Source of the DNA: Clostridia bacterium
GTDB taxonomy: Bacteria; Bacillota; Clostridia; Christensenellales; Borkfalkiaceae
Direction of reading: 5' to 3'
Assembly (NCBI GenBank): GCA_017463205.1
Contig: JAFTPQ010000050.1
Span: forward strand, 1 to 37,434
DNA: 37,434 nt
The notes under the pieces are model-generated. The model was given only the letters and a program-made list of their open reading frames with translations, was not told where the DNA came from and searched no databases. The position numbers and the translations under genes were made by a program. Positions 1 through 25,334 of this stretch are shown one piece after another; the stretch's first letter is position 1, and the number at the start of each line of letters is the position of its first letter.

Positions 1-291
1 GCAGCCAACGTTCCGTTGGATCTTGTCTTTCTATCTTTCGTTGCTGGGACTTGTAACCGTATCGTTCCCCTACAGGAAGTCAAGAAACTCAGTTTCTTGT
101 CAGGGTGCAGGGGCGGAAGCCCTTGCAAAGTAAAGCCCCCATTAAGCAAGCTTTGCTTGCGCCCTCTACTGCGTAGCAGTTATGGCAACGCTTGTCGTTG
201 CCTGTTATAAATCCTAGCCACAACTTTGCCGTCAGGCAAAACTTCACTCGCCATAGGCGAACTTCACTTGTCGTCAGACAAACTTCACTTT
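1..291 (-). repeat. Hairpin-cassette repeat, copy A
   Basis: One of seven related intergenic cassettes and the only one lying in reverse. Read on the minus strand it starts with three tandem units headed by gtgaagtt, each followed by a tiny hairpin (GTC/GAC, CGCC/GGCG, GCC/GGC). It then shows gttgtgg, a GGCAACG/CGTTGCC hairpin, CTGC/GCAG, GCAAGC/GCTTGC, a GGGC/GCCC hairpin and AAGAAACT/AGTTTCTT. It ends with a purine-rich spacer and the terminal CCAACG/CGTTGG palindrome at about 5-19. No gene is seen here; the open frames across it are repeat translations. The left end may continue outside the window. Confidence 0.85.
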
Positions 292-6501: not shown

Positions 6502-7605
6502 TTATTGCGCGCTGGTACGGACGGGCAACACCAAATATTGACAACGCTTGTCTTCTCCGTTTTCGATGGTGAAAGGGGACACTGCCGAATTGAACGAAAG
6601 CACTGCGTTTTCTTCTTCCAACGCTTTCAATGCGTCCATTAAATATTTCCCGTTCATGGCGATTTTCAATTCTTTTCCTTCCAAAGCGCAAACCACCGTT
6701 TCTTCCACTTTCCCGATTTCGGAATTTGCATTGATCACGATTTTGCCGTTTTTTACGTCGAATAACACCAAATTGTTTTTATCTCCGCGAATCAATACGG
6801 ACGCGCGTTCTACGCTGTCGATCAGCTCGGCTCTCTTTACCGTTGCTTGCGTAGTAAATTCGGTGGGGTAGATGTTTTCTTTGCGAACAAATTCGCCCGA
6901 ATACAAACGGGAATTGATCACCGTATCTTTCAATTCCACCGACAACAAATTTTTGTTGGCATAAATTTTTAAACCGTCTTCCCCGTCCAACATACGCGAA
7001 ATTTCCGTCAACGTGCGCGCAGGGCAAACGATTTTCATATCGCCGCTGCCGCCCAACACGTCTGCATACGAACAAGCCATTCTAAACCCGTCCAACGCCG
7101 TCGCCGTCAGTTTGCCGTCTTGCGTTTCCAATAAGCAACCTTTTAAAATAGGTCTGCTTTCGTCCGTCGCGCAACAAAAGACCACTTTCGAGATCAGCGT
7201 TTTTAAATCGGATTCTTTAATTTCAAAATATTCGTCCGTGGACACGCCTTCGCCAAATTGCGGGAAATCGGACGCAGACAACGTTTGCATAGACGATTCG
7301 CTTTCGGCATATTTGATGGAAATACCCCGTTCGTCGGAAGCGATCACCACTTCGAAATCGGAAATTTTATTGACGAAATCGGCAAACGTTTTCCCGTTGA
7401 CGCACACTTCGCCCTCTTCCAAAACTTCCGCGCGGATCTTCTTTTCAATAGAAATTTCCCCGTCGTAAGCCTTTAACGTAAGTCCGTCGTTTTTCGCTTG
7501 TAATTTGATACATTCCAGCACAGGCGTAATCGTCTTTGCCGCGCAAGCTTTGCTTACCGTCAACGCCGCATCTGCCAACACCATTCCTTCGCATACAAAT
7601 TTCAT
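6502..7605 (-). CDS. dnaN: DNA polymerase III beta subunit (sliding clamp)
   Basis: 367 residues, the normal length for DnaN, with three repeated clamp domains of about 120 residues. Recognisable stretches are KTITPVLECIKLQA near the N-terminus, LSASDFPQF, ATDESRPILKGCLLE, ATALDGFRMA, the third-domain VKRAELIDSVERASVLIRG, and the C-terminal end YLVLPVR. The clamp encircles DNA and tethers polymerase III and other proteins. AGGAGAAAG precedes the ATG, and a TATAAT lies about 25 nt further upstream without a clear -35. dnaN normally follows dnaA, but here it has no dnaA next to it and points toward rpmH, which indicates a rearranged origin region. About 1.5 kb separates it from oriC. Confidence 0.97.
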   Translation of the reverse strand: MKFVCEGMVLADAALTVSKACAAKTITPVLECIKLQAKNDGLTLKAYDGEISIEKKIRAEVLEEGEVCVNGKTFADFVNKISDFEVVIASDERGISIKYAESESSMQTLSASDFPQFGEGVSTDEYFEIKESDLKTLISKVVFCCATDESRPILKGCLLETQDGKLTATALDGFRMACSYADVLGGSGDMKIVCPARTLTEISRMLDGEDGLKIYANKNLLSVELKDTVINSRLYSGEFVRKENIYPTEFTTQATVKRAELIDSVERASVLIRGDKNNLVLFDVKNGKIVINANSEIGKVEETVVCALEGKELKIAMNGKYLMDALKALEEENAVLSFNSAVSPFTIENGEDKRCQYLVLPVRTSAQ

Positions 7606-7810
7606 AATTATTTTCTTTCTCCTGTCTGCTCTTATTATATAGTATTGTTTTTTATCTGTTTTATTTTACCATATGCGTTATTTTTTTGCAAGCAAAAATA
7701 CACGTGTTGCGCCGTTTTCACCGTTTTTTCTTTTATTTTTTTTCTGACGTTTATTTTTTCGGCAAACGGGAATCATTATGGTGCGAAAGGGGAGAGGGTT
7801 GGAAGGTGAG

Positions 7811-8119
7811 GTGAAGTTTGCCTGCGGCAAGTGAAATTTGTCTGACGACAAGTGAAGTTCGCCTATGGCGAGTGAAGTTTTGCCTGACGGCAAAGTTGTG
7901 GCTGGGATTTATAATGAGCAACGACAAGCGTTGCCATAACTGCTTCGCAGTAGTGGCGCAAGCAAAGCTTGCTTAAATTGGGCTTTACTTTCGTGGGCTC
8001 TGCCCACACCCGCAAGAAACTGAGTTTCTTGACTTCCTGTTGGGGAACGATAAGTTTATTAATATCAATAAAGAAAGATAGAAAGACAAGATCCAACGGA
8101 ACGTTGGTTGGTTAGAGGT
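7811..8119 (+). repeat. Hairpin-cassette repeat, copy B
   Basis: The cleanest copy. Four tandem gtgaagtt/gtgaaatt-headed units occupy 7811-7894, with mini-stems GCC/GGC, GTC/GAC, CGCC/GGCG and TTGCC/GGCAA. Then follow gttgtggctgggatttataa, GCAACG/CGTTGC, CTGC/GCAG, GCAAGC/GCTTGC, GTGGGC/GCCCAC, AAGAAACT/AGTTTCTT, gacttcctgttgggg, an AT-rich loop, the purine spacer gaaagatagaaagacaagat, and the terminal CCAACG/CGTTGG. The right end (ttggttagaggta) overlaps the last codons of the minus-strand SLOG gene and is identical at the end of copy G. With the dnaN promoter this accounts for the gap 7606-8111. Confidence 0.88.
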
Positions 8120-8612
8120 AGTAAATGGGTTTATCCGGGTAGCGTTTTTTACAGTACCCGACCGTGAACGCCGCGCCGCCCGTACTCTTTATACAATACG
8201 CCAATACGACGTCCGCTCGATCCACCATATACCGATCGCGTACCTGCATACACCCGCGATAATAATATGCACTCATCATCACCTGCTCGTCCGCAGCTTT
8301 CACAATATCCACATATCGCTGTTTGTCCTCTGCCGAAAAATTCTTTTCTTGCCCGTAGCAGGGAATACACACCACCAGCTTAATGTCGGAATACCGTCCT
8401 TTTAACGCTATCACAGCCTCTGCCGCCAATAAATCGAACCCCATCGCAACTCCGTTGTAAAAGGTCTTCGCGCCGAGCTGTATCAGTTGCTCGACGGCGT
8501 TTATCACCCGTTCTTTCGTGATCCCTTCTTCCAATGTTCGATGCCCCGTAAATGCGCAAGACGTTATATTTGTTTCCTTTTGCTCCGCAGACGATATCCA
8601 TAATTGTTCCAT
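8112..8612 (-). CDS. YpsA-like SLOG-superfamily protein (DUF1273-type)
   Basis: 166 residues. The N-terminal SCAFTGHRTL and the later FYNGVAMGFDLLAAEAVIAL match the YpsA/YspA group of the SLOG superfamily, Rossmann-like folds thought to bind nucleotides or nucleotide-derived ligands. The central part has VVCIPCYGQEKNFS, and the end has DRYMVDRADVVLAYC followed by GGAAFTVGYCKK, a typical SLOG arrangement. YpsA has been linked to cell division and stress in Bacillus; the role here is unknown. A consensus promoter ends so close to the ATG that the transcript appears leaderless. The last two codons and the stop fall in sequence shared with repeat copy G, so the 3' end may derive from the repeat. 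Confidence 0.8.
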   Translation of the reverse strand: MEQLWISSAEQKETNITSCAFTGHRTLEEGITKERVINAVEQLIQLGAKTFYNGVAMGFDLLAAEAVIALKGRYSDIKLVVCIPCYGQEKNFSAEDKQRYVDIVKAADEQVMMSAYYYRGCMQVRDRYMVDRADVVLAYCIKSTGGAAFTVGYCKKRYPDKPIYYL

Positions 8613-8621
8613 AACTTCTAT

Positions 8622-8650
8622 ACTATATCACACTTTTTTGATTTTGTCAA
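8622..8650 (-). promoter_or_regulatory. Promoter of the SLOG gene (leaderless)
   Basis: On the minus strand, TTGACA (8650-8645), a 17-nt spacer and TATAGT (8627-8622). The expected start near 8615 is only 2-3 nt before the ATG at 8612, leaving no room for a ribosome site. Confidence 0.75.
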
Positions 8651-8664
8651 GATTTGAGAATAAA

Positions 8665-9076
8665 GTGAAGTTTTGTAGAGTGGTGAAGTTGTGGCAGGGA
8701 TTTATAACGAGATACACTCCACGCGGTCGTTTTACTCCCTTGGGGCGCTCGCAAGCTCGCTATTCCGTCACTCCGTTCCTTACGGTATGACAGGATGGGG
8801 AACGATACGGTTACACTTCCCAACAACGAAAGATAGAAAGATGCGATCCAACGGAACGTTGGTGACTGCTTCGCAGTAGTGGCGCAAGCAAAGCTTGCTT
8901 AAGTGGGCTACTCTTTTTGTGGGCTCTGCCCACACCCGCAAGAAACTGAGTTTCTTGACTTCCTGTTGGGAAACGATACCGTTATTAATATCAGTAACGA
9001 AAGATAGAAAGTCAAGGTCAAGCGGAACGCTTGCGACAACGGAAGATAGAAAAGACATGATCCAACGGAACGTTGG
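8665..9076 (+). repeat. Hairpin-cassette repeat, copy C (next to oriC)
   Basis: Starts with a degenerate gtgaagtt pair and gttgtggcagggatttataa. It then inserts a module absent from copy B: gagatacactccacgcggtc, gcgctcgcaagctcgctatt and a CCGT/ACGG hairpin before gtatgac. Terminal-type palindromes occur at about 8850 and 9062, and a variant CAAGCG/CGCTTG lies between them near 9019. The right end is only about 40 bp from the oriC triplet track. No gene is seen. Confidence 0.85.
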
Positions 9077-9099
9077 TGGAGGGGAGAAATAGGATAGAT

Positions 9100-9381
9100 T
9101 AGTTTAATAAATAATATTAGTAGTAGTATTAGTAGTGTCGGTGGAATTGTGGATACAATACTTTTTTTAATCCAAGAAACCCTTTAAAATCCTCATTGTT
9201 CTCCCATTTATATTTCTGTGGACAACCCCTCTTTTTTGTGTGGATAAAATTGTGGATTCTTTGTGGAATTGTTGATCGTTTTTGATGCTTTGTTTATTTT
9301 TAAATTTATTTTTATACATATTTTCTGAATAATTATAAAGTTTTACGAGTTATCCACAAAGGTTATCCACAGTGTGGATAA
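9100..9381. other. Chromosomal replication origin, oriC
   Basis: Perfect DnaA boxes are TTATCCACA at 9350-9358 and 9363-9371 (plus) and TGTGGATAA at 9239-9247 and 9373-9381 (minus). Near-matches lie at 9148-9156, 9217-9225, 9251-9259 and 9262-9270. Between the clusters, 9280-9345 is very AT-rich. The gap 8613-9531 holds only the SLOG promoter, repeat copy C, this region and the rsmG promoter. Gene orientation largely switches here from minus on the left to plus on the right, as expected for bidirectional replication. dnaA is not adjacent. Confidence 0.92.
9112..9156 (-). promoter_or_regulatory. Candidate basal unwinding element with DnaA-trios
   Basis: Plus-strand triplets TAG TAG TAG TAT TAG TAG run in phase from 9118 to 9135. 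A GC-richer spacer follows, then a near-perfect minus-orientation box (9148-9156). On the minus strand the order is box, GC-rich spacer, CTA-type trios, as described for the Bacillus subtilis origin unwinding region. Confidence 0.7.
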
Positions 9382-9492
9382 CTTAATACACAGATAGGTG
9401 GAAAACTTTGTAAAAACAGGAAGAATAAAGGCGAAAAAATTGCATATTTTAAAGGAAAGAAAAGGAAAAATACAAAAGCGTAACAAAAAAGA

Positions 9493-9521
9493 TTGCCATT
9501 TTCTGTAAGAAGTGGTATAAT
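9493..9521 (+). promoter_or_regulatory. Promoter of rsmG (near-leaderless)
   Basis: TTGCCA (9493-9498), a 17-nt spacer and TATAAT (9516-9521). The expected start near 9528 is about 4 nt before the first in-frame ATG downstream of the promoter (9532). Confidence 0.75.
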
Positions 9522-9531
9522 AAAAAACGCT

Positions 9532-10227
9532 ATGAAAATACGGGATATACAAACGATTTTACAAAACGAGATCATGGGCGAAAAACGTGAGAAATTCGAA
9601 ACATTTCGCGCGCTTTTGTTGGAATATAACGCTCGGTATAATTTAACGACGATCTTGGAAGAAAAGGATATGTATTACAAACATTTTCTCGACAGCGCGG
9701 CTGGCGTCGATCTGTTTCAACAAAACGCGCGCGTTGTGGAGATCGGTTCGGGCGCGGGATTTCCGTCGATGGTGTTAAAACTGTTACGCCCCGATCTTTC
9801 GTTCGATTTATTGGAAAGTGTTGGTAAAAAATGTGAATTTTTACGCGCGGTTGTGGATAAATTCCAACTTAAAAACGTGCATATTTATAACATTCGTGCG
9901 GAAGAAGCCGCAAAAGTGGATAAATTTAGGGAAAAGTATGATTATGCAACGGCGAGGGCTGTGGCAAGAATGAACACGCTGACGGAATATTGTTTGCCGT
10001 TTGTGAAGGTGGGCGGACAGTTTATCGCATATAAAAGCGGGGATATCACCGAGATAGACGAAGCGGAAAACGCATATAAAATTTTAGGCGGAAAAAAGAA
10101 AGCCGTGTATCCTTACGCATTACCGGAAGGGTATGGCGAGCGGGTGTTGGCGGTGATCGAGAAAGTGAAACCCACGCCGTTGAAATATCCGCGCGGGCAA
10201 GGGAAAGAACGGAAAAATCCGCTGTGA
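9532..10227 (+). CDS. rsmG: 16S rRNA (guanine527-N7)-methyltransferase RsmG
   Basis: 231 residues from the ATG at 9532. The family's N-terminal helix pattern is seen in FRALLLEYNARYNLTTI and the following YYKHFLDSA. The SAM-binding motif VVEIGSGAGFPSMVLKLL lies near residues 72-89. YDYATARAVARMNTLTEYCLPFVKVGG is also characteristic, as is the C-terminal KYPRGQGKERKNPL. RsmG methylates G527 of 16S rRNA (E. coli numbering). The frame is open upstream to 9493, but that would place the start inside the promoter, so 9532 is preferred; 9574 is a further option. rsmG is a usual origin neighbour, but mnmE, mnmG and parAB are absent. It ends at a terminator shared with the convergent xre1. Confidence 0.94.
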   Translation: MKIRDIQTILQNEIMGEKREKFETFRALLLEYNARYNLTTILEEKDMYYKHFLDSAAGVDLFQQNARVVEIGSGAGFPSMVLKLLRPDLSFDLLESVGKKCEFLRAVVDKFQLKNVHIYNIRAEEAAKVDKFREKYDYATARAVARMNTLTEYCLPFVKVGGQFIAYKSGDITEIDEAENAYKILGGKKKAVYPYALPEGYGERVLAVIEKVKPTPLKYPRGQGKERKNPL

Positions 10228-10241
10228 TAAAAAAGCAAAGA

Positions 10242-10275
10242 AAAAGTTCGTTTTATCAACGAACTTTTTTCATTT
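10242..10275. terminator. Bidirectional terminator overlapping the xre1 3' end
   Basis: AAAGTTCGTT pairs with AACGAACTTT around a TTATC loop, with A and T runs on either side. The right half of the stem encodes the last residues (KKVR and stop) of xre1, so coding and terminator functions overlap. Confidence 0.85.
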
Positions 10276-11617
10276 TTATAAAGTATAACAAAACAAATAT
10301 CGCGCAATCAAGCGTCATCGCCAACAACAAACACCCTTCCAATGTTTCGATCACGTTCCATCCGTCGCTTAATGCAGGTTTTGTATACACTTTGATCGGC
10401 AATCCGTCGCCCGTTTGTGCCGTGTGAACAGTGGCGACTTCTTGGTTATTCCACACGTATTCGCAAATTTCCTCGCCGTGTTTGTTGAACAGATAATATT
10501 TTCGTTCTTCCTGTTCTTCGCCGCTCGGTTTTTCTTCGTTTTTTTCATCAGGTAAAACGATTTCTTCAAAAATTTCAGTGTTCGTGTTTCCGTTGGCGTC
10601 TTCCCACGACGAACCGTATAAAACGTCTTGCGCCATATAAGCTTTGAAATCATCGTAATTATCAAACGTTTTTGCTTTTGTAAAATTGTAAACGTTTAAA
10701 CATTCAATGCAAATCAGATACGTGATGGCAAGAACGGCAAAAACACTTATACAAGGGATGCCGACCCGTAAAAGGATCCGTTTTCGGTTTTTATTTGCTT
10801 TCTTTTGTTGATCGGTGAGCGTGATCAAACCGCGCGAAACCAATATTTTTTCGATCCATATTTTATATACGGCGAAAAGGAGAATGGAAACAACGGCAAA
10901 GGAGATTGTTGCCAATAATAACCAAGACGAAAAAGTCAAGCCCGCATATGCCGTATGAATAAATAAAAAGGGGATGGGGAGTGTATTTATCAAAATAAGA
11001 AACAGCAACGTATTTTTACAAATGCCGGCAACGTTGCGGTTGAAATCGGACACGATCGTTTTGACGGTCGTATTTTTTTGGTCGTTTTCGTCCTCGTCCG
11101 TTTCTTCCGTTTGCCGATAAAATGCGGAGTTGGTGAAACAAATTTGACAAATAACGCCTGCGAGAAAAAAGGCGAGGGACAAGCACGCTCCTAACAAGCC
11201 TCTATAAAATGCAAAATTGCAGATGACGGCAACAATGACACCTAAAAGCCCCAGACCTGCGGAAATAAAACTTTGGTTTTTATATTTGACCAAACGGAGT
11301 TTAAACAGTCTTTTTAATTGCTTTTCACTGTTTTGTTTTTGCGTAGGTTTATTTGTTTTGAGATCGGGTGGATTTTGGGTTGAATTTGGTAAAACGAAGG
11401 GGGCAGGGTTGCGTTCACCGCGTAAAAGTTCGTCGGAAGTGACTCCGAAAATATCGGCGATGACGGGGATCAGATGCAGATCGGGCGTACATTCGTCCCG
11501 CTCCCATCGACTGACGGTTTTATCCGACACAAACAATTTATCGCCGAGTTCTTTTTGCGTCATATTGTGCGATTTACGCAAGGCGGCGATGAATTTTCCA
11601 ATGGAGTTGTATTTCAT
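10256..11617 (-). CDS. Membrane-anchored XRE-family regulator (paralogue 1)
   Basis: 453 residues from the ATG at 11617, which has AAGGAGC upstream; the longer open frame runs into repeat copy D and is rejected. Residues 4-65 are a helix-turn-helix of Cro/C1 type (MTQKELGDKLFVSDKTVSRWERDE, split across helices 2 and 3). About six hydrophobic segments follow, in the regions near 120-165, 215-270 and 310-335, with another at the C-terminus near 425-445. A soluble stretch between the last TMs (LYGSSWEDANG onwards) probably faces outside. The layout suggests a membrane sensor-regulator, but its signal and targets are unknown. A paralogue lies at 23945-25276. The segment ERNPAPFVL after the HTH is encoded by the family 3 repeat. 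Confidence 0.82.
   Translation of the reverse strand: MKYNSIGKFIAALRKSHNMTQKELGDKLFVSDKTVSRWERDECTPDLHLIPVIADIFGVTSDELLRGERNPAPFVLPNSTQNPPDLKTNKPTQKQNSEKQLKRLFKLRLVKYKNQSFISAGLGLLGVIVAVICNFAFYRGLLGACLSLAFFLAGVICQICFTNSAFYRQTEETDEDENDQKNTTVKTIVSDFNRNVAGICKNTLLFLILINTLPIPFLFIHTAYAGLTFSSWLLLATISFAVVSILLFAVYKIWIEKILVSRGLITLTDQQKKANKNRKRILLRVGIPCISVFAVLAITYLICIECLNVYNFTKAKTFDNYDDFKAYMAQDVLYGSSWEDANGNTNTEIFEEIVLPDEKNEEKPSGEEQEERKYYLFNKHGEEICEYVWNNQEVATVHTAQTGDGLPIKVYTKPALSDGWNVIETLEGCLLLAMTLDCAIFVLLYFIKMKKVR
11390..11420. repeat. GC-rich coding repeat (family 3) inside xre1
   Basis: Contains gggggcagggttgcgttcac and matches the reverse complement of the copy in yyaC over about 31 nt with one difference. 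It encodes ERNPAPFVL in xre1, a different peptide from the one in yyaC because the strand is opposite. Confidence 0.65.
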
Positions 11618-11635
11618 GATTTTGCTCCTTTTTGT

Positions 11636-12185
11636 GTGAAGTTTTTTATGTTGAGTGAAGTTTGCTTCGCGAGTGAAGTTTTGCCTAACGGCAAAGTTGT
11701 GGGAATATGAAGATGGCGATAAGGTTATTAATATCGATAACGAGGGATAGATAAGGCTTGATGCAACGGAGCGTTGCTGCCTGACGACAAAGTTGTGGCT
11801 GGTATTTATAATGAGATACACTCCACGCGGTCGTTTCACTCCCTTGGGACGCTCGCAAGCTCGCTATTCCGTCACTTCGTTCCTTACGGTATGACAAGAC
11901 GGGGAACGATACGGTTACAAGTCCCAGCAACGAAAGATAAAAAGATGTGATCCAACGGAACGTTGGTGACTGCTTCGCAGTAGGGCGCAAGCAAAGCTTG
12001 CTTAATGGGGGCTTTACTTTGCAAGGGCTTCCGCCCCTGCACCCTGACAAGAAACTGAGTTTCTTGACTTCCTGTTGGGAAACGATACCGTTATTAATAT
12101 CAGTAACGAAAGATAGAAAGTCAAGGTCAAGCGGAACGCTTGCGACAACGGAAGATAGAAAAGACATGATCCAACGATACGTTGG
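11636..12185 (+). repeat. Hairpin-cassette repeat, copy D
   Basis: The longest copy. It starts with three gtgaagtt units and then gttgtgggaatatgaagatg. A GTTAT/ATAAC hairpin and a variant terminal palindrome GCAACG/CGTTGC (near 11763) precede a second internal start (gacgacaaagttgtggctgg). It then runs through the gagatacactccacgcggtc module to CTGC/GCAG, GCAAGC/GCTTGC, GGGC/GCCC and AAGAAACT/AGTTTCTT. Near its end CAAGCG/CGCTTG and a final CCAACG/CGTTGG with loop ATA instead of GAA (12173-12187) are seen. The gap 11618-12315 holds this, a terminator and nothing else seen. Confidence 0.85.
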
Positions 12186-12263
12186 TGTAGAAATTATAAC
12201 ATACTTTCGTTGAGAAAACAACCCCTAAAACCGAAAATAAATCTCTAAAAAGGCGAAAATAAC

Positions 12264-12294
12264 TGAAAAACAGACGGAAAACAAACCTTTCCGT
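12264..12294 (-). terminator. Terminator of the beta-propeller gene
   Basis: On the minus strand ACGGAAA pairs with TTTCCGT around a GGTTTGT-type loop, followed by CTGTTTTTC. It lies just beyond the TAG stop at 12316-12318. Confidence 0.65.
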
Positions 12295-12315
12295 GTTCCC
12301 CGTCTTTATTAAAAA

Positions 12316-13584
12316 CTAAATTTTATCAAATAATCCCGTTTCGGTATCCGACGGTTCTGCCTGCTCGAATACAGAATATTTCGTTTGTAACGCCCCTACT
12401 TTTAAACAAAAATCCGTGTCTAACAATTTCTTTCGTTTACTCTCTTTTCCACGGTCTTCCACAGCAAAAATATGCTTTCCGTTGGTGTATAACAACGTGT
12501 TTGTCCCGTCTTTTGTAAGCAAACAAAAATCTGCTACGCCTGAAGCCAATTCCGTTTCGATACAGTTTTTAAAATTTCCTGCCGATTGCGGCGTCAATTT
12601 TACCAATTTCCAACTGCGAGGAATAAAACCGGGATCTTCCGATTTTTTGTTCTTTTTCAACTCCTTTTCCACGTTGATCAGATTGTTATTGATGAAAATT
12701 TTTTTAGGGTCTTTTTTTCCGTTTTTCGCCATACTGCCGTCATTTGCGCCCGTTCTGCCGCCCGATATCATCGGCTTGCCTGCAAAACACATCACAAACG
12801 TGGAAATCAGCCCGATAAAAGCCTGTACAAGCCGAACGGGGATCAATAGAATATCCAAAAAAATATTCCCCTCTTGCGCGTCGTCGCCCGGTTTGCGGAT
12901 ACAATATAAATTTCCCGCTCCGTCACAGACAGGTTTTACGTATGAAAACCGTTCGTCGGAAATCACAGTTTCAATTTCCATCGATCGCAGATTTAAACGC
13001 AAAATTTCGGACGGCGTATACGTTAAAAATACGTTATTCGCATCTCTGCCTACCCCGTACGAGTTAAAAATAAGGTCCCCGTTTTCGTCAAAAGAGGGGT
13101 TTTCATCAAAACTGTCGCCGTCGGTTAAACTTTTATAATCGCCGTCGTTTTTGGAAAAAACAGCCAAATTGGCACGGACCGAATCCGTTTGCACCGTCCC
13201 TAAAATATCCCCTGTGTCATAAACGTTCAAAGACAAAAAACGAACTTCGTTGGACGTAAGAAAATGCGCTTCCGTCTTCTTTTCATCGTCCGTAAATTTA
13301 TAATATAAACCGGAAGTTTCATTGACGGAAAAGGCGTAAATCAACTTGTTTTCCTCTGTTGTCAAAGAAACGGAATGTAATGAAACGGAAACTTCTTCGT
13401 TGCGCGCTCCTTCAAAATAAAAATCGTCCGACATCATTAAATCGGTGTTTTTCTTCCATTCTCGGTTCTTTTCCGCCCGAAGCATGCTTTCCCGATAGCG
13501 CACGACGTAATCGCTGTCGTATTTTTCTATTTTTCCGTTGTTGTAAAGGCACAGTTTTTCACTGTCGGTAAACACAAATTTCAT
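12316..13584 (-). CDS. Unknown protein: PD40-like propeller with central hydrophobic segment
   Basis: Not recognised as a named family. 422 residues, starting at an ATG preceded by AAGGAAA. The N-terminal 240 residues are beta-rich and repetitive; DGDSFDENPSFDENGDLIFN resembles the PD40 blade pattern of TolB-like propellers, with YVKPVCDGAGNLYCI as another possible blade. A hydrophobic stretch at about 243-271 (ILLIPVRLVQAFIGLISTFV) could be one TM segment or hairpin. It is followed by a flexible Gly/Lys/Asn-rich linker and more beta-like sequence (TKDGTNTLLYTNGKHIFAVED). It has no signal peptide. It ends in TAG, the only other TAG in a real gene frame besides the one inside tig. Flanking intergenic regions are full of repeats. 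Confidence 0.65.
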   Translation of the reverse strand: MKFVFTDSEKLCLYNNGKIEKYDSDYVVRYRESMLRAEKNREWKKNTDLMMSDDFYFEGARNEEVSVSLHSVSLTTEENKLIYAFSVNETSGLYYKFTDDEKKTEAHFLTSNEVRFLSLNVYDTGDILGTVQTDSVRANLAVFSKNDGDYKSLTDGDSFDENPSFDENGDLIFNSYGVGRDANNVFLTYTPSEILRLNLRSMEIETVISDERFSYVKPVCDGAGNLYCIRKPGDDAQEGNIFLDILLIPVRLVQAFIGLISTFVMCFAGKPMISGGRTGANDGSMAKNGKKDPKKIFINNNLINVEKELKKNKKSEDPGFIPRSWKLVKLTPQSAGNFKNCIETELASGVADFCLLTKDGTNTLLYTNGKHIFAVEDRGKESKRKKLLDTDFCLKVGALQTKYSVFEQAEPSDTETGLFDKI

Positions 13585-13599
13585 AAAAAATTTCCTTAT

Positions 13600-13699
13600 T
13601 TCAACGCGTACATGGTATGTCTATTTTATAAAAATTATAATTCAACTCATACATGGTATGGGTGTTTGTAAACACAACTTCAACGCGTACATGGGTGCG
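13600..13699 (-). repeat. Palindromic element (family 2), three tandem copies
   Basis: Three copies of ttcaacgcgtacatggtatg or close variants, with cores centred near 13612, 13653 and 13691 (spacing 41 and 38). The third has atgggtg in place of atggtatg. They fill the gap between the propeller gene and ricT. On the minus strand they read CATACCATGTACGCGTTGAA. Confidence 0.85.
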
Positions 13700-13716
13700 T
13701 TGTTTTGTAAAAATAA

Positions 13717-14580
13717 TTATAACTCGTCCTTATCGTCGTTTTCGTCTTCTTCTTCCGCTTGTACGTTTTTCTTAAAACGCAGATCGGAAACAGGGAAGTC
13801 TTTATAGATCCAGCCGCCGTTACGATCGTCTATTTTCACTTTTGCGTTTAATTTCAACATATTGACGGATACAACGATGGCTTTCCCGTCGGGAGAAGAC
13901 ACTTCCGAACCGACTTTGGGCATCTTTTTATTGACGTCCGCATAATAATCGTTTTCATAACCCAAACAGCACATCAATCTGCCGCACAGACCGCTGATTT
14001 TGCCCGGATTTAAGGACAAACCTTGCGTTTTTGCCATTTTTACGCTTACTTTTTTAAATTCGGGCATATTGCCTGCGCAACAGCAGATCCGTCCGCAGGG
14101 CGCAATACCGCCCAAGTATTTGGTTTCGTCGCGCGTGCCGATCTGGCGTAATTCGATACGGGAATGGAAGGTTGCCGCAAGGTCTTTCACCAACTCGCGG
14201 AAATCCACGCGGGAAGCGGCGGTGAAAAAGAAAGAAATTTTACTGTTATCGAAAGAAAATTCGCAATCGATCAATTTCATATCCAAGCCGTGCTGCGCAA
14301 TTTTTTCCTTACAAATTTGGATCGCCTGCGGTTTTTTCGTTTGACAAGATTCGTAATGTTCTTTGTCTTTTTGCGTGGCGATCCGCACGATGGGTTTTAA
14401 GGGTGGAACGATCTCGTCGTCGGAAACGAAACGTTCGGGGTAAGCTACCCAAGCGTATTCGAGCCCGCGCGAGGTTTCTACGACAACGGGCATATTCCGT
14501 TCGTATACGTCGCCCGATTTCGGCGCGAAATAATACAATTTTCCGCCGTTTTTAAATTTGATAACTACTACTTTTACCAT
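13717..14580 (-). CDS. ricT: RicT (YaaT), PSP1-domain protein
   Basis: 287 residues from the ATG at 14580, which has AAGGAA upstream; an ATG seven codons earlier lacks a ribosome site. The PSP1 domain is clear: ISFFFTAASRVDFRELVKDLA, then IELRQIGTRDETKYLGG. The cysteine cluster CGRICCCA followed by SGLCGRLMCCLGYE binds Fe-S clusters in the RicAFT (YmcA-YlbF-YaaT) complex. That complex affects RNase Y-dependent mRNA maturation and sporulation or competence in Bacillus. ricA and ricF are not in the window. The C-terminus is an acidic tail. It lies downstream of holB on the same strand with a 101-nt gap, the usual Firmicute order. Confidence 0.93.
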   Translation of the reverse strand: MVKVVVIKFKNGGKLYYFAPKSGDVYERNMPVVVETSRGLEYAWVAYPERFVSDDEIVPPLKPIVRIATQKDKEHYESCQTKKPQAIQICKEKIAQHGLDMKLIDCEFSFDNSKISFFFTAASRVDFRELVKDLAATFHSRIELRQIGTRDETKYLGGIAPCGRICCCAGNMPEFKKVSVKMAKTQGLSLNPGKISGLCGRLMCCLGYENDYYADVNKKMPKVGSEVSSPDGKAIVVSVNMLKLNAKVKIDDRNGGWIYKDFPVSDLRFKKNVQAEEEDENDDKDEL

Positions 14581-14681
14581 ATATTTTTCCTTTTCGGGCA
14601 TATATTTTGCCCGATCGCGTAAAATAGACGCGCGGTTTTTTTGATCGGCGTTGTTATAAAAAACCGTTCAATAAAACCGAA

Positions 14682-15662
14682 TTATTGTTTATTTTTTTCT
14701 AAAATTTTGGCGATACAAAGCTGAATACATTGTGGGAAAACAGCGTTGAATTGCACTTGCTTTTCCGCTTGAGATAAAGCGTCTTGCGCGTAGATCAACG
14801 CGGACGGTTGATAACTTTGCGCCACTTTTTTTAAATTTGTCAGTTCAGAACTTAATAAAATATTTTTTTGGTTGTTTTTCGGAAGATGCAACAACAAAGC
14901 GTCGCGATAGATCAGGCGAAGAAGCGCCAACAGTTCTTTCGGGTGTTTGGTTTCGCCCACTTGCCGCGTGAGAGCAGGTAATTTTTCGGGGGAGCAAAGC
15001 ACCAAAGAAAAGGCGTTGTCCACCAACGTTTTATATTGCCCGCCTTCCAAAATATTTTGCGCTTCACCGACGTTGCCGCCCGATGCCGCCGCGCAAACGG
15101 AAAGCACGTCGCCATCGTATTTATCCCCGTATATCCGTTGCAGACAACGGGTGACGTCCGTTACGTCGAACGGAAGGATCTCGAGTTTTTTTGTACGGGA
15201 TAACACCGTTTGCAATACAGGGAACACCGTGGTTGCGCCCAACAAAAAAGTTACGCCTTGCGGGGGTTCTTCCAACAGTTTTAACAATTTGTTTTGCGTT
15301 TGAGTGTTGGCTTCGGCAAAATCGCTGAGAATAAACAGTTTTTTTTCCGTTTCAACAGGATTTAAAACGCTTTCTTCTTGTATTTTTTCGGCGTCTTCCA
15401 CCGTCAATTTTTTACCGTCTGCGGGAAAAAACAGGCAATCGGAAAAATTTTCCGCGTCGATCAAGTTGGAAATACGCTGTTGTTTAGCAGTTAAGTTTGT
15501 ATCGTCTAAACAGCCGAAAAAGAGTTTGGCAAACGTTTTTAACGCTGTGCGAAGATTTCGCGCGTCTTGGAAGGTAAGCAAATACGCATGGGATAATTGT
15601 CCGTCTTGCGCTTCTGCTTGCAGCAGTTGATAAGCACGCGTCGTTTTCAAAAGCGTCTGCAT
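14682..15662 (-). CDS. holB: DNA polymerase III delta' subunit
   Basis: 326 residues from the ATG at 15662, preceded by AAGGAGG; the longer open frame has no ribosome site. HolB features are LSHAYLLTF near the N-terminus, a region equivalent to Walker B and sensor 1 (KKLFILSDFAEANTQTQNKL, then LLKLLEEPP), and TVLSRTKKLEILPF matching the SRC-like segment (SRT here). The P-loop is degenerate, as usual for delta'. The C-terminal part is a helical collar domain. The protein is a stator of the clamp loader that places DnaN on DNA. It is the first gene of holB-ricT and has its own promoter just upstream. tmk, often next to it, is not present. Confidence 0.92.
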   Translation of the reverse strand: MQTLLKTTRAYQLLQAEAQDGQLSHAYLLTFQDARNLRTALKTFAKLFFGCLDDTNLTAKQQRISNLIDAENFSDCLFFPADGKKLTVEDAEKIQEESVLNPVETEKKLFILSDFAEANTQTQNKLLKLLEEPPQGVTFLLGATTVFPVLQTVLSRTKKLEILPFDVTDVTRCLQRIYGDKYDGDVLSVCAAASGGNVGEAQNILEGGQYKTLVDNAFSLVLCSPEKLPALTRQVGETKHPKELLALLRLIYRDALLLHLPKNNQKNILLSSELTNLKKVAQSYQPSALIYAQDALSQAEKQVQFNAVFPQCIQLCIAKILEKNKQ

Positions 15663-15701
15663 ACCTGTTTGATCCTCCTTTTTATTTTGCCATACATAAT
15701 C

Positions 15702-15730
15702 ATTATAACACAAAAAGAAAAAATAATCAA
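15702..15730 (-). promoter_or_regulatory. Promoter of holB-ricT
   Basis: On the minus strand, TTGATT (15730-15725), a 17-nt spacer and TATAAT (15707-15702). The start is expected near 15695, about 33 nt before holB. Confidence 0.7.
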
Positions 15731-15775
15731 GTGTACGTAGGCGTTGAAAGATAAGTTTTCGAGCCGAATAGTCGC

Positions 15776-15804
15776 TTTACATATGGGTAAATTTGTGATA
15801 TAAT
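15776..15804 (+). promoter_or_regulatory. Promoter of the RlmI-type methyltransferase
   Basis: TTTACA (15776-15781), a 17-nt spacer and TATAAT (15799-15804), diverging from the holB promoter. GAGGAAAAGG follows before the ATG. Confidence 0.75.
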
Positions 15805-15836
15805 GGTAAAAAAAGTGAAGATCGAGGAAAAGGATC

Positions 15837-17003
15837 ATGCCGTATACGGTTATTTTAAAAAAGAATGAAGAAAAGCGGTTGTTGGCGGGGCACAGTTGGG
15901 TGTATGCCAACGAAGTGGCGAGGATAGAAGGCAAGGACAAAAACGGGGCTCTTGCGACGGTGTGCGCGTACGACGGGCGGTTTATCGGGAAAGGATATAT
16001 CAATCACGCGTCGAAAATTTTGGTGCGGATATTTATTCGGAACAATGAAACGGACGAAGGCGATTTTTATTATGATCGCATTGCAGAGGCTTGGGCGCAA
16101 CGGAAGGCGTTGGGATATGAAAATTGTTGCCGCGTGGTGTTTGGAGAGGCGGATAATTTGCCTGCGCTGATCGTGGATAAATACGACGACGTATTGGCGG
16201 TGCAGTGTTTGTCGTTGGGTATACATCAGCGAAAAAAAGTGATCGTAGATGCGTTGGTGCGGTTGTTTTCGCCGCGCGGGATCTTTGAACGGAGCGACGT
16301 TGCCGTTCGGATAAAAGAAGGTCTTGCGGAAGAAAAAGGCGTGTTGTACGGAGAAGTTCCCGACGAGGTTTTGATCAAGGAAAACGGGTTGATAATGTCG
16401 GTGGACGTGAAAAACGGGCAGAAAACGGGGTATTTTCTCGATCAGAAAGAAAATCGGTTTGCTTTGCGCAGATATGCGGCGGGCGCGCGTGTATTAGATT
16501 GTTTTTGTAACAGCGGCGGCTTTTCGTTGAACGCGGCAACGGTGGCAAAGGAAGTGACGGCGGTGGACGTTTCGCAATTTGCCTTGGATAACGTGATGAA
16601 AAACGCGCAACTGAACGGTTTGACGAATATTTCCGTTGAACGGGCAGACGTGTTTGAATTGTTACGAAAAAAACGCGCAGACGGAGAAAAATACGGGTTG
16701 GTCGTGTTAGATCCTCCTGCTTTTTGCAAGAGCGCGAACGAGGCGAAAGACGCCTATCGCGGATATAAAGATATTAACGTATTGGGTATGAAATTGGTGG
16801 AAAAAGGCGGATTTTTGGCAACTTGCTCTTGTTCGCATTATATGACGTTGCCTTTATTTACCAAGATGCTGTCGGATGCGGCGAAAGAAAGCGGACGGCG
16901 TGTTCGAGTTTTGGAAATGCGTGCGCAAGCGCCGGACCACCCCTCTCTTTTAAACGAAGAAGAAACGCAGTATTTGAAATTTTTCGTTTTGCAAGTGCTT
17001 TAA
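15837..17003 (+). CDS. rlmI: RlmI-type 23S rRNA cytosine-C5 methyltransferase
   Basis: 388 residues. The N-terminal PUA-like domain starts with ILKKNEEKRLLAGHSWVYANEV. A middle RNA-binding domain carries FGEADNLPALIVDKYDDVLAVQ. The Rossmann methyltransferase domain has the SAM motif VLDCFCNSGGFSLNAA (near 220-235), the acidic residue in VTAVDVS, and the motif IV core VLDPPAF. TCSCSHYM carries the catalytic-type cysteine of RlmI/RlmK-like enzymes. It probably makes m5C in 23S rRNA; the exact target is inferred from the family. GAGGAAAAGGATC precedes the ATG. The gene is transcribed alone, divergently from holB, with family 2 repeats and hairpin cassette E directly downstream. Confidence 0.88.
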   Translation: MPYTVILKKNEEKRLLAGHSWVYANEVARIEGKDKNGALATVCAYDGRFIGKGYINHASKILVRIFIRNNETDEGDFYYDRIAEAWAQRKALGYENCCRVVFGEADNLPALIVDKYDDVLAVQCLSLGIHQRKKVIVDALVRLFSPRGIFERSDVAVRIKEGLAEEKGVLYGEVPDEVLIKENGLIMSVDVKNGQKTGYFLDQKENRFALRRYAAGARVLDCFCNSGGFSLNAATVAKEVTAVDVSQFALDNVMKNAQLNGLTNISVERADVFELLRKKRADGEKYGLVVLDPPAFCKSANEAKDAYRGYKDINVLGMKLVEKGGFLATCSCSHYMTLPLFTKMLSDAAKESGRRVRVLEMRAQAPDHPSLLNEEETQYLKFFVLQVL

Positions 17004-17034
17004 AAGGGTGATTTGTTCTCATTTTTGATAAAAT

Positions 17035-17090
17035 TTCAACGCATACCTGGGTGGGTGTTTTTGTGGTTCAACGCACACCTGGGTATGTCG
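17035..17090 (-). repeat. Palindromic element (family 2), two tandem copies
   Basis: Two copies of ttcaacgc(a)cacctgggt form, at 17035-17057 and 17067-17090 (spacing 32). On the minus strand each reads CCAGGTATGCGTTGAA or CCAGGTGTGCGTTGAA. They lie directly after the methyltransferase gene. Confidence 0.8.
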
Positions 17091-17101
17091 TTTTTATTTT
17101 G

Positions 17102-17532
17102 GTGAAGTTTGCGTTGCAAGTTAAGTTTGTCTAACGACAAGTGAAGTTTTGCTTAGCGGCAAAGTTGTGGGAATATTAAGATGACGATATCGTTATTAAT
17201 ATCGATGATGAGGGATAGATAAGGCTTGATGCAACGGAACGTTGGTAACTGCTTCGCAGTAGGGCGCAACCTGTCGGTTGCTTAATTTGGGCTTAACTTC
17301 GCAAGGGCTTCCGCCCCTGCACCCTGACAAGAAACTGAGTTTCTTGACTTCCTGTTGGGTGTCGATACGGTTATTAATATCGATAACGAGGGATAGAAAG
17401 ACAAGATCCAACGGAACGTTGGCTGCCCACACCCGTAAGGGACAATGCCCCTTAACCCCTTATTGGGTAACGACACGGTTACAAGTCCCAGTAACGAAAG
17501 ATAGATAAGACATGATCCAACGGAACGTTGGT
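17102..17532 (+). repeat. Hairpin-cassette repeat, copy E
   Basis: The first 66 nt are identical to the start of copy G. The cassette contains the GCAACC-TGTC-GGTTGC hairpin in place of GCAAGC/GCTTGC, GGGC/GCCC, AAGAAACT/AGTTTCTT, a first terminal palindrome near 17408, then AAGGG/CCCTT and a final CCAACG/CGTTGG at 17518-17532. With the family 2 copies and the wzz promoter it accounts for the gap 17004-17692. Confidence 0.87.
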
Positions 17533-17574
17533 TTTTTTTGCCGTTGGTTTTTCTGCGTTTTTTAAGAAAAACGC

Positions 17575-17603
17575 TTTACATTATAGAATGAAAATGATAT
17601 AAT
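17575..17603 (+). promoter_or_regulatory. Promoter of the wzz/BY-kinase pair
   Basis: TTTACA (17575-17580), a 17-nt spacer and TATAAT (17598-17603). The leader is about 83 nt, with AAGGAG before the first gene. Confidence 0.75.
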
Positions 17604-17692
17604 AAAAGCGTATGTTTGCCGTTTTGTTGATAATTTACTCTATGAACAAAACAAAAAAAACATAAGTACGATTGTAAAAGAAGGAGAATCTG

Positions 17693-18973
17693 ATGGAAGA
17701 AAAGATTCAAACGGAAGAAGGGATTAATTTTCTCGAACTTGTCAAATTACTGTTAAGCAAAGTGAAAATTTTAATCTTGGTTGTGTTGATTGCGGCGACG
17801 TGCGGCGCAGTTTTTGCCGTATGGCGTTATCATGACGTGAAATATTATGGAACAAGGGTAGAATTTTACGTCAACCCCGAAAAACCCAACGACGGAACAA
17901 ACACCAGCAACGCGCAATACGGCGTTTACGGCGCATATGGCAGACACGTTATGGATAATATGGTGAAGTTGTTGGCGTCGGAAAGTTTTGCCGAACAGTT
18001 GATGCTGGAAGAAAACGGATTGCCTACCGCATATGAAAATTATTGGGAATCGCCCGCAGAAGAATGTGGGTTGGAAAATAAGATCGCTTATGCGGAAGAA
18101 TTGATGACCACCGCGGCGACCGAAAATGAATTCTACGAAGAAAAGAAAGCCATTTTAGACAAAGCGGAAAAAGAATTGAGCGAAGTGATGAAGGTGTTAA
18201 ACCTCGAATGGCAAACGACGGCGTCCACGGTGATTTCGTTCAGCGAAGCGGCATATCAAAAGTTTTTGGACGAAGTTGTAAAAGATGACATAAACAACGT
18301 AAAATATGCCAATTTATTTGCATCTTATGCGGAAATGCAAGTGAAAGAAGCGGCGGTTGAAGAGGCGCAAGAAATTGCGGATGCTGCGAAAAATAAAGCG
18401 GATATTGCGCAAAAAGAAGCAGACGAAGCAGAAGAAGACGTATTTGAATCGTGGAGAAAGACGGAAAAATATATGACGATGCTTTCTCGGTTTAAAAAAG
18501 CAGTCAGCTATTCGTATTTGCAAGAAGGCGAAGACGCGAACGACGTAAACGATTTGGCGCGGAGCTTTATTTACGTCAACATTTCCATTTTGAACGACGA
18601 AGGCTTTGCCGAAGACGTGTTGGAACGCGTGAGAAGAGTCGTTCCCGATTACGTAGAAGAAAACATGACCGTGCCTTCGGGATATAGCGGAACGAACTGT
18701 TTGCGTATCACGCGTACGGATCAGATCGAATGGACAAACCCCTCTTTGAAGATACAGCAAGCGACAAAATACGGCGTTTTGTTGGCGGTGTTGGCGTTTG
18801 TGGTAACTTGTATCGCGATCGTTGTTATCGACAGATCGGATAAAAGATTGCGCGATTACGAACCTGTGATGAGAGAATTAAACATTCCCGTATTGGGCGT
18901 TGTGCCGATGATCGATATGGAAAATCAAGGCAAAGACAGCGATACGAAAAAGAAAACGGCGGAGGTGAAATAA
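17693..18973 (+). CDS. Wzz/CapA-type polysaccharide chain-length regulator
   Basis: 426 residues. A TM segment at about 28-50 (ILILVVLIAATCGAVFAVW) follows the Wzz-type N-terminal INFLELVKLLLSKVK. A long extracytoplasmic region follows, with a predicted coiled coil at about 215-255 (alternating A, E and K). A second TM near 362-382 is followed by a short cytoplasmic tail containing LNIPVLGVVPMID, as in CapA/YveK. The protein activates and anchors its partner tyrosine kinase and sets polymer length in capsule or exopolysaccharide export. The extracytoplasmic domain is longer than in many Gram-positive partners. Its stop overlaps the next ATG by one base. No glycosyltransferases or polymerase lie nearby, so the pair stands alone between repeat cassettes E and F. 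Confidence 0.85.
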   Translation: MEEKIQTEEGINFLELVKLLLSKVKILILVVLIAATCGAVFAVWRYHDVKYYGTRVEFYVNPEKPNDGTNTSNAQYGVYGAYGRHVMDNMVKLLASESFAEQLMLEENGLPTAYENYWESPAEECGLENKIAYAEELMTTAATENEFYEEKKAILDKAEKELSEVMKVLNLEWQTTASTVISFSEAAYQKFLDEVVKDDINNVKYANLFASYAEMQVKEAAVEEAQEIADAAKNKADIAQKEADEAEEDVFESWRKTEKYMTMLSRFKKAVSYSYLQEGEDANDVNDLARSFIYVNISILNDEGFAEDVLERVRRVVPDYVEENMTVPSGYSGTNCLRITRTDQIEWTNPSLKIQQATKYGVLLAVLAFVVTCIAIVVIDRSDKRLRDYEPVMRELNIPVLGVVPMIDMENQGKDSDTKKKTAEVK

Positions 18974-19872
18974 TGAAATTATTAGACAGAATTTCCAATC
19001 ACATTCGCAGAAAGAATATGCAAAAGGATTCGGAAGGCAGAGGTCAAGCGCAACGGATCGATTATATCATCGATGAAGACACGCCGTTCGACGTGACGGA
19101 AGCGTTCCGCAATTTGAAAGCGACGTTGTCTGTGTCTGTGCCGAAAAAATCGGGCGGAGTTGCGATTATGACGTCGTCGGCGTATCCCAGAGAAGGAAAA
19201 ACGACGGTGGCTGTGAATCTTGCGTTGATGTTTGCAATTTCGGACGCAAAAGTGGTGCTGATCGACACCGACCTTCGCAAAGGCCGTGTGGCGAAATATT
19301 TCAAACGGAAAAGAGTGCCCGGACTTTCCGATTATTTGTCGGGTCAAGCGGAATTGGAAGAAGTGGTACACCATTCGCATATCAATGAAAACTTATCGTA
19401 CATAACCTGCGGAACGCGCTCCCCTCGTCCTTACGAGTTGTTGGAAAGCGAGGAAATGAAAGCGTTTATCGAGGAAATGAAAGAAAAATACGATTATGTG
19501 ATCATTGATACTCCCCCTGTTTTGATGGTGTCGGACGCATTGGCTTTGGCGACTGCGGTTGACGGCGCAGTGCTGATCTGCCGTCATCAAGTGTCGTTTG
19601 TCAGCGATATTTCGCGCGCGCTCAGTGCGTTGCGGTTTGCAAAGGCGAACGTACTTGGGGTTGTAGTCAACGATTATAAAGCGCCTCAACGCGGGAAATA
19701 TTACGGAAATTATAAAAAGTATTATTATTACAATAATTACGGATACACGTACGGATCGACCAAAGCGGAGGATAAGGAAGACGATTTGGCGGTAGAAGAA
19801 TTGTCGAAAGACACGAAAAAAACGACCGATAAAAAAAACAATAAAGGTTTTGAAAAAAAACATAAAAAGTGA
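18973..19872 (+). CDS. CpsD/CapB-type tyrosine kinase (BY-kinase)
   Basis: 299 residues. The kinase core has a Walker A at about 69-78 (AYPREGKTTV), Walker A' near 94-104 (VVLIDTDLRKG) and Walker B in DYVIIDTPPVL, the typical bacterial tyrosine kinase set. The first-domain DEDTPFDVTEAFRNLKATL is the oligomer contact found in CapB. Near the C-terminus a tyrosine cluster (KYYGNYKKYYYYNNYGYTY) provides autophosphorylation sites, and a charged tail follows. It works with the preceding chain-length regulator to control polysaccharide export. Translation is probably coupled, since TAA and ATG share a base and GGAGG lies just upstream within the previous gene. No matching phosphatase gene is nearby. 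A strong terminator follows. Confidence 0.9.
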   Translation: MKLLDRISNHIRRKNMQKDSEGRGQAQRIDYIIDEDTPFDVTEAFRNLKATLSVSVPKKSGGVAIMTSSAYPREGKTTVAVNLALMFAISDAKVVLIDTDLRKGRVAKYFKRKRVPGLSDYLSGQAELEEVVHHSHINENLSYITCGTRSPRPYELLESEEMKAFIEEMKEKYDYVIIDTPPVLMVSDALALATAVDGAVLICRHQVSFVSDISRALSALRFAKANVLGVVVNDYKAPQRGKYYGNYKKYYYYNNYGYTYGSTKAEDKEDDLAVEELSKDTKKTTDKKNNKGFEKKHKK

Positions 19873-19900
19873 TCGGTTTTAAACGATGAAAAACGGCGTC

Positions 19901-19936
19901 GCCTCCTTTTTCTGTGCGGAAAAGGAGGCAGTTTTG
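19901..19936 (+). terminator. Terminator of the wzz/BY-kinase pair
   Basis: GCCTCCTTTT (19901-19910) pairs perfectly with AAAAGGAGGC (19920-19929), followed by AGTTTTG. Confidence 0.85.
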
Positions 19937-19942
19937 TAAGCG

Positions 19943-20477
19943 GTGAAGCCGTTTTTGGGTGAAGTTTGCCTTTGGTAAGTGAAGTTTGTCTGACGACAAA
20001 GTTGTGGGAATATTAAGATGGCGATAAGGTTATTAATATCGATAACGAGGGATAGATAAAGCTTGATGCAACGGAACGTTGCTGCCTAACGGCAAAGTTG
20101 TGGCAGGGATTTATAATGAGATACACTCCACTCGCTTCGTTCGGGACGCTCGCAGGCTCGCTATTCCGTCACTCCGTTCCTTACGGTATGACGGGGTGGG
20201 GAACAATATGGTTACAAGTCCCAGTAACGAAAGATAGAAAGACGTGATCCAACGGAACGTTGGTGACTGCTACGCAGTAGAGGGCGCAACCTGTCGGTTG
20301 CTTAATGGGGCTTGATTTTCGTGGGCTCTGCCCACACCCGTAAGGGACAATGCCCCTTAACCCCTTATTGGGTGTCGATACGGTTACAAGTTCCGATAAC
20401 GAAAGATAGAAAGTCAAGGTCAAGCGAAACGCTTGCGATAACGAAAGATAGAAAGACGTGATCCAACGGAACGTTGG
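19943..20477 (+). repeat. Hairpin-cassette repeat, copy F
   Basis: Begins with degenerate gtgaag units and GTC/GAC, then runs through gttgtgggaatattaagatg, a GTTAT/ATAAC hairpin and the variant palindrome GCAACG/CGTTGC near 20066. A second internal start follows, then the gagatacactccact module, CTGC/GCAG, GCAACC-TGTC-GGTTGC, GTGGGC/GCCCAC, AAGGG/CCCTT and CAAGCG/CGCTTG. It ends at 20463-20477 in CCAACG/CGTTGG, only 37 bp from the lon start. With the preceding terminator it fills 19873-20513. I see no clear lon promoter outside it. Confidence 0.85.
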
Positions 20478-20513
20478 GTTTAAAAGTGAAAAGAAGTGGG
20501 TAAAAATAAATAT

Positions 20514-22961: not shown

Positions 22962-22999
22962 AAATATCGACAAAAATAAGTTGGATAAGATAAACGATT

Positions 23000-23761: not shown

Positions 23762-23794
23762 CGGGTTTTAAAAAGACGGTAAAAAAATGAAAAA

Positions 23795-23860
23795 CTCCCC
23801 TTTTCCTTGAAATTCTCGCTGAGCGAGAGTGAAGTTCGGGAAAAAGGGGCGTTTATTTTT
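23795..23860 (+). terminator. Terminator of lon-engB with inner hairpin
   Basis: CCCCTTTTCC (23797-23806) pairs with GGGAAAAAGGGG (23838-23849), followed by a T run. The loop holds a perfect CTCGC/GCGAG mini-hairpin followed by agtgaagttcg, which looks like a single unit of the hairpin-cassette family. Confidence 0.8.
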
Positions 23861-23888
23861 TTGTTGCGGAATACAAATGTGATATAAT
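23861..23888 (+). promoter_or_regulatory. Promoter of xre2
   Basis: TTGTTG (23861-23866), a 16-nt spacer and TATAAT (23883-23888). The leader is about 50 nt. Confidence 0.6.
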
Positions 23889-23944
23889 AAAATCATTCAG
23901 AAACGCGCGTCTGAAAATTTTGAAGTGAAAAAAGGTAAACGATT

Positions 23945-25276: not shown

Positions 25277-25294
25277 AGGTTATAAATATGTAAA

Positions 25295-25328: not shown

Positions 25329-25334
25329 GTTTTG

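Follow-up and report, generated by a model that had tools for sequence, protein, structure and literature searches.

The repeated cassettes in this DNA are, as we tentatively read them and with slightly less than even confidence, non-autonomous DNA repeats of a Gut-1 type, built of hairpins and linkers, that were spread in trans to positions beside intrinsic terminators. The window, meaning the whole stretch of DNA that was analyzed (37,434 bp), is one entire contig of an assembly of 1.61 Mb in 73 contigs that is 73% complete (G000). Seven cassettes lie in it, all between genes, and their parts follow the order claimed in a preliminary description. The features are given here one per line.

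1 to 291, minus strand: cassette truncated by the contig end, with a Gut-1-like leader at 215 to 290 (36.5 bits, E 0.0011).
7811 to 8107, plus strand: cassette with four leader units, one hairpin block and a tail; Gut-1 match at 7809 to 7883.
7811 to 7902, plus strand: leader of that cassette, in which GTGAAGTT-type linkers alternate with small hairpins and GTTGTGG closes.
8041 to 8107, plus strand: tail of that cassette, with the constant linker GAAAGATAGAAAGACAAGAT and the final hairpin CCAACG-GAA-CGTTGG.
8665 to 9076, plus strand: cassette with two leader units, an M block, a T-g-H block and a double tail; it adjoins an oriC-like region.
11636 to 12185, plus strand: cassette with two GTTGTGG starts and S, M and T-g-w-H blocks.
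17102 to 17531, plus strand: cassette with S, T-g-w-H and P blocks; the same intergenic region is cassette-free in the congener G024.
19959 to 20477, plus strand: cassette flanked by a ParA-like gene's terminator and by lon.
25335 to 25796, plus strand: cassette with three CCAACG/CGTTGG tails; the leader start follows a T-run.

Every cassette starts with a leader of GTGAAGTT-type linkers, two to four in number and each followed by a small hairpin, then has GTTGTGG (GTTGTGA in one copy), and continues as a body of blocks in which short hairpins are joined by linkers of constant sequence. A linker, for instance GAAAGATAGAAAGACAAGAT, and then a hairpin like CCAACG-GAA-CGTTGG close the blocks. Repeat finding in the window recovered a 97-nt unit in 11 copies and a 40-nt tail unit in 15. 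The cassettes together occupy 2,947 of the 37,434 bp (7.9%), in agreement with the 3 kb or so estimated earlier, and the skipping, swapping and doubling of modules between copies is likewise borne out. The extents first proposed were broadly right, except that the ends placed at 8119 and 19943 overshoot by 12 to 16 bases. That the cassettes are noncoding and not ordinary insertion sequences is also supported. Six open reading frames running through them gave nothing above the curated cut-offs of Pfam or NCBIfam. Open frames of 92 to 197 amino acids pass through cassettes on the minus strand at 11685 to 12221, 20181 to 20774 and 8780 to 9058, and family-less frames of this kind could be annotated as spurious proteins.

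Two further features of the window are recorded here in their own right. The cassette end at 9076 falls shortly before an oriC-like stretch (9100 to 9450) in the ypsA/rsmG interval, which holds several TTATCCACA-type DnaA boxes and has dnaN close by. A second small repeat, beginning TTCAACGCGTACATGG, is found at 13600 to 13713, 17035 to 17090 and 33912 to 33946, with reverse copies near 600 to 629, 27366 to 27437 and 36203 to 36232. It comes with a hairpin and a T-run in places, directly precedes some cassette leaders (on contigs C2 and C24, and at 17035 in the window), and is present in G024 in the opposite orientation.

The cassettes had been presented as apparently undescribed, and for the leader this does not stand. 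When the Rfam threshold is relaxed, and only then, the Gut-1 model (RF01706) matches the window at 7809 to 7883 with 47.4 bits (E 1.8e-6 for the window) over model positions 1 to 77 of 77, so that the threefold order of linker and hairpin is present over the whole model. This score is the best in the window and in the genome, and it falls short of the gathering score of 50 bits; at gathering scores, Rfam finds only a single tRNA in the window. The leader at 215 to 290 listed above is the second Gut-1 match. The congener G027, which also uses the GTGAAGTT linker, has three places that pass the Gut-1 cut-off, at 50.6, 50.9 and 51.8 bits, one of them being locus L246. For the body the earlier claim survives, as none of its modules matched an Rfam family in the window at E 0.1. 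Rfam types Gut-1 as an sRNA gene. In Weinberg et al. 2010 (PMC2864571), Gut-1 is entered among structured RNAs, its taxon given as "Human gut only", and is named with the noncoding RNAs known only from environmental sequences. A literature search, with most subscription journals outside its coverage, met the accession RF01706 in that paper alone and found these arrays nowhere described as repeats; no description of the composite body in the window cassettes turned up within the reach of these searches.

The cassettes extend well beyond the window. BLAST of the cassettes against the whole assembly returned 86 pieces on 25 contigs, and a token parser applied to 690,240 bp from those contigs (six of them in part) delimited 56 cassettes, 40 of which begin with a leader; 56 is a lower bound because leader arrays also lie on four further contigs (C3, C35, C38 and C56). 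Many cassette 3' ends carry tandem extra copies of GGAACGTTGG after the closing hairpin, for example at C51:26775 and C9:8309 and also at locus L168, which look as if produced by slippage at the 3' end. The M module (GTCACTCCGTTCCTTACGGTATGAC) additionally occurs reversed beyond the cassette end, in the 3' flanks of C26:51371 and C63:197, and may be an independent palindromic repeat.

Across the class, Gut-1 was matched at E <= 0.001 in 36 of 196 sampled genomes including this one, 22 of them above the cut-off, with two or more matches in 27 carriers and one in nine. Within the genus it reached 25 of 41 genomes (14 above the cut-off) with a maximum of 39 matches, copy numbers here being lower bounds as candidates were scored in part. 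The control set gave one matching genome in 14 and none above the cut-off. The leader pattern found 84 stretches in named genomes, and the 80 matches listed all belong to Clostridia, Clostridiales or Oscillospiraceae metagenome-assembled genomes, many from herbivore guts. Three GTGAAGTT linkers at array spacing were present in 11 of 391 class genomes, this one included, against one match for the reversed control. A 397-base cassette query found some match in 26 of 61 genomes, again counting this one, and the matches in relatives are short and mostly single modules; the tail linker GATAGAAAG recurs with different stems at L034, L086, L105, L163 and L168. In the phylum search, the two hits among 299 genomes were this genome and one resembling a coding repeat. 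Carriage by phages was considered and rejected: two cassette patterns had no match in viral contigs, and GTGAAAT triples, found there in 79 stretches, had hairpins in both gaps in only 5 of 87 matches (four of them array-like by eye), so that viral contigs overall hold very few such arrays.

What is kept between copies differs for the two kinds of part. Among named genomes, the segments between successive GTGAAGTT linkers fold into a stem of 4 bp or longer in 64 of 91 distinct cases, those selected by the search pattern itself being left out, compared with 5.9% of shuffled segments and 4.7% of random windows; 40 distinct stem arms are found among the segments so bounded. The corresponding figures for this genome are 19 of 29 segments and 2.2% of shuffled ones. 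Linkers are thus conserved as sequence and stems as pairs. GNA triloops are unusually stable in DNA. The loops within the arrays have a strong polarity, with 49 of the form C(TNC)G against 2 of the form C(GNA)G, compared with 74 against 92 elsewhere, duplicate copies being included in these counts.

The arrangement of the motif in relatives gives further insight. The preliminary description held that terminal inverted repeats are absent, which for arms of the kind seen in relatives is true of this genome, where the reverse linker AACTTCAC occurs in none of the 56 cassettes and the form is one-armed, but not of its relatives. There, inverted pairs of arms are present at 13 of 16 Gut-1 loci, the best-scoring loci having been chosen, and a second inverted arm is found in 11 of 14 regions of G027 and in four of six regions from four other congeners. 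The CAAC end of the canonical form could be located in nine of the 16 loci, and each of the nine directly borders a T-tract, compared with 6.8% of positions drawn at random; an obvious hairpin precedes the T-tract at eight of the nine. At eight of the 16 loci a tRNA gene on the same strand ends 34 to 43 nt upstream of the motif. Canonical pairs lying 34 to 43 nt past tRNA genes and after T-tracts are seen at L283 to L287, L289, L290 and L292, in several families of the class.

Proximity to terminators is less uniform outside the canonical form. The 33 array ends tested in 19 regions of congeners, G027 among them, include 10 that lie 0 to 4 nt after a terminator-like T-tract; two more were recognized by eye, and no region has such a T-tract at both of its ends. 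Of the 40 leader starts in this genome, 17 have a terminator-like site no more than 30 nt away, compared with 9.4% of controls, which were positions with a co-oriented upstream gene. Within 100 nt the figures are 20 of 40 against 18.2%, and the other 20 leader starts, having no such site, count against placement at terminators. A consensus scan of positions 7600 to 25900 found 42 terminator-like sites against 27.3 in shuffles, a count into which hairpins of the arrays themselves enter.

From these observations a course of events can be proposed. Short perfect hairpins on constant single-strand linkers would have spread to intergenic sites by intrinsic terminators, with single-stranded DNA folded into hairpins as the putative active form. 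The linkers would serve as recognition sites and the stems would supply shape only, with an activity acting in trans placing copies beside terminators, either because settling there does least harm or because the placing activity targets such sites. In this lineage a single Gut-1-like arm may have become fused to the modules T, g, W/w, H/P, M and S and to the CCAACG tail, and the composite may then have been amplified. It is a bolder proposal, which we consider doubtful, that Gut-1, instead of being an RNA gene, is one of the arms in a mobile DNA of a new class, in which constant linkers of 7 to 8 nt are recognized, any stem sequence will do provided that it pairs, and precise delivery to the side of terminators is carried out by an enzyme other than the known Y1 or reverse transcriptase types, the window then representing a one-armed, composite branch.

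The cassettes could instead be a structured noncoding RNA or a 3' UTR element, whose sense transcript would carry hairpins that protect, terminate or regulate RNA. We think this unlikely, even though Gut-1 has been classified as RNA both in Rfam and in the paper cited above. The gene upstream is co-oriented in 38 of the 45 cassettes for which such a gene was called, as would suit a transcript, and RNA folding gives z-scores of -3.45 for the cassette at 7811 to 8106 and -4.65 for that at 25335 to 25796, the latter folded as RNA only. The cassette at 7811 to 8106, the sole one folded both ways, has larger scores as single-stranded DNA, -5.26 and -5.39 for its two strands, each of which folds like beads on a string. 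Mismatches in the leader show no clear G-U preference (12 GT-type, 8 AC-type and 14 other pairs); a count by slots, which is noisy and mixes slots, gives 164 GT against 95 AC and leans, if anything, toward the sense strand. The pair counts leave out the MAFFT alignment of the g-W-H module, which is blind to structure. Wobble pairs are not decisive between DNA and RNA. Harder to reconcile with an RNA are the inverted pairing of arms and the start of the motif directly after a T-tract at all nine located ends in relatives, as there is no space just upstream for the motif to have its own promoter when it begins where a terminator stops. The zero spacing to T-tracts, the inverted pairs and the DNA folding together lean toward folded single-stranded DNA over a structured RNA, and relatives in other gut Clostridia suggest that Gut-1 is repetitive DNA lying next to the terminators of genes and not a gene for a small RNA.

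Intergenic sites that correspond between this genome and congeners were compared, with presence and absence at the ParA-lon and G024 sites judged by eye. The gap between the ParA-like gene and lon holds a cassette of about 520 bp here. Among 29 congener loci fetched, ten without lon were left out; of the remaining 19, two have an array with other stems (L168 and L193), two are filled by a different repeat that contains CTAAGACTGTGTCAA or a near relative of it (L173 in G016 and L174 in G020), and no array was seen in the other 15. The dnaN-ypsA gap measures 506 bp here and about 123 bp in G024, the cassette being present here only; the gap before 17693 likewise has a cassette here and none in G024. 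Arrays stand between ypsA and rsmG in both genomes, in opposite orientations. There is thus gain or loss at matching intergenic sites between congeners, although not to the exact base. Neither a target duplication nor an empty site exact to the base could be established, no mobilizing enzyme was found and no copy carrying a gene between two arms was seen, all of which counts against a mobile element; spread by recombination alone could account for the copies.

Recombination is also the route assumed if the cassettes are DNA sites of benefit to the host, for example an insulator close to terminators, a nucleoid-protein site or a brake where replication and transcription meet, maintained by selection. 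Such a role, which we regard as decidedly improbable, would fit the adjacency to T-tracts, the sharing of linkers by several genera and the orientation of the cassettes, which agrees with the local GC skew in 50 of 56. Since 393 of 545 called genes follow the skew too, skew and gene direction cannot be separated as the cause of this orientation. The patchy occurrence of Gut-1 over the class and the genus speaks against such a role, as does the inconsistent occupation of matching sites.

If the cassettes are mobile repeats spread in trans, as we favor, an enzyme that moves them might be sought among known types. The preliminary description had raised a substrate moved in trans as in REP elements; that idea is on balance weakened here, and the chance that the cassettes are REP- or REPIN-type elements mobilized by a Y1 (RAYT-like) transposase, or owe their movement to a reverse transcriptase of the group II intron type, appears very small. 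In its favor are a similar style (hairpins, inverted pairs and strand bias), the preference of group IIC introns for sites after terminator hairpins, and the distribution of Y1_Tnp, which occurs in 14 of 41 genomes of the genus and in 7 of the 10 congeners with at least eight Gut-1 matches against 7 of the 31 others (Fisher p 0.017, uncorrected for multiple testing or kinship); the genome with the most Gut-1 matches, G030, has both Y1_Tnp and RVT_1. Against this, the Gut-1-rich genomes G000, G020 and G027 lack a Y1_Tnp match, in the case of G000 within an assembly that is 73% complete. Of the five genomes with most GTGAAGTT pairs, G000, G006, G027 and G033 have neither Y1_Tnp nor RVT_1, and in G063 RVT_1 is absent and the match to Y1_Tnp is weak. 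Arrays of GTGAAGTT are not associated with Y1_Tnp (3 of 8 against 11 of 33), and none of 10 Y1 loci of congeners, fetched as 1.6 to 3.4 kb, has a Gut-1 match or linker cluster alongside. Several of these loci match Rfam STnc490 beside the Y1 gene (L197, L200, L201 and L203 to L205, one above the cut-off), and these matches are perhaps a regulatory or end structure of Y1 insertion sequences. A reverse transcriptase was rejected as the mobilizer, RVT_1 being absent from G000 and not associated with Gut-1 in the genus, and Rfam found no group II intron in the window.

That the cassettes are remnants of a single decayed protein-coding element or an artifact of assembly is barely credible: 18 of the 56 lie less than 450 nt from the end of a contig or examined stretch, and C40:1-1789 and C51:22235-24023 share 1,789 bp at 99.2% identity before diverging inside a cassette (which may reflect a strain mixture, an assembly error or recombination between cassettes), and flanks shared among C40, C51 and C4 were set aside as possible assembly errors, but most cassettes stand inside contigs among ordinary genes, a related grammar is present in named Clostridia genomes and the six frames tested rule out a protein-coding remnant as far as they go, so that decay and artifact are refuted for most copies.

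The results change the context of an orphan. Gut-1, known in Rfam as an RNA from the human gut, can now be placed in many Clostridia genomes, often as multicopy inverted pairs by terminators. Attention moves accordingly from ligand binding to gain and loss between strains, to proteins that bind the linkers and to the folding of single-stranded DNA. When stems change wholesale between fixed linkers, RNA finders based on covariation would call an RNA gene irrespective of any actual transcript.

Comparison with known systems places the cassettes near several of them. Group IIC introns resemble them in occupying post-terminator sites, and differ in that this genome has no reverse transcriptase and the window no Rfam intron match. 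REP, BIME and REPIN elements are likewise short intergenic palindromes in many copies, and the inverted pairs of relatives recall them; they share one palindrome, whereas in the cassettes the hairpins vary and the linkers are shared, and no Y1 transposase was found in this genome. Pneumococcal BOX elements have a variable number of modules. In general description (PMC3049150) they are, like the cassettes, modular, noncoding and intergenic, and they differ in their hosts and in having fewer module types. The closest relation is to Gut-1 (RF01706) itself, which has three hairpins on GUGAAAU-type linkers and is matched by the window leader over its full length. The cassettes depart from it in using the GTGAAGTT linker, in scoring just below its cut-off and in being one-armed, fused to other modules and dispersed in many copies, as opposed to forming a single gene.
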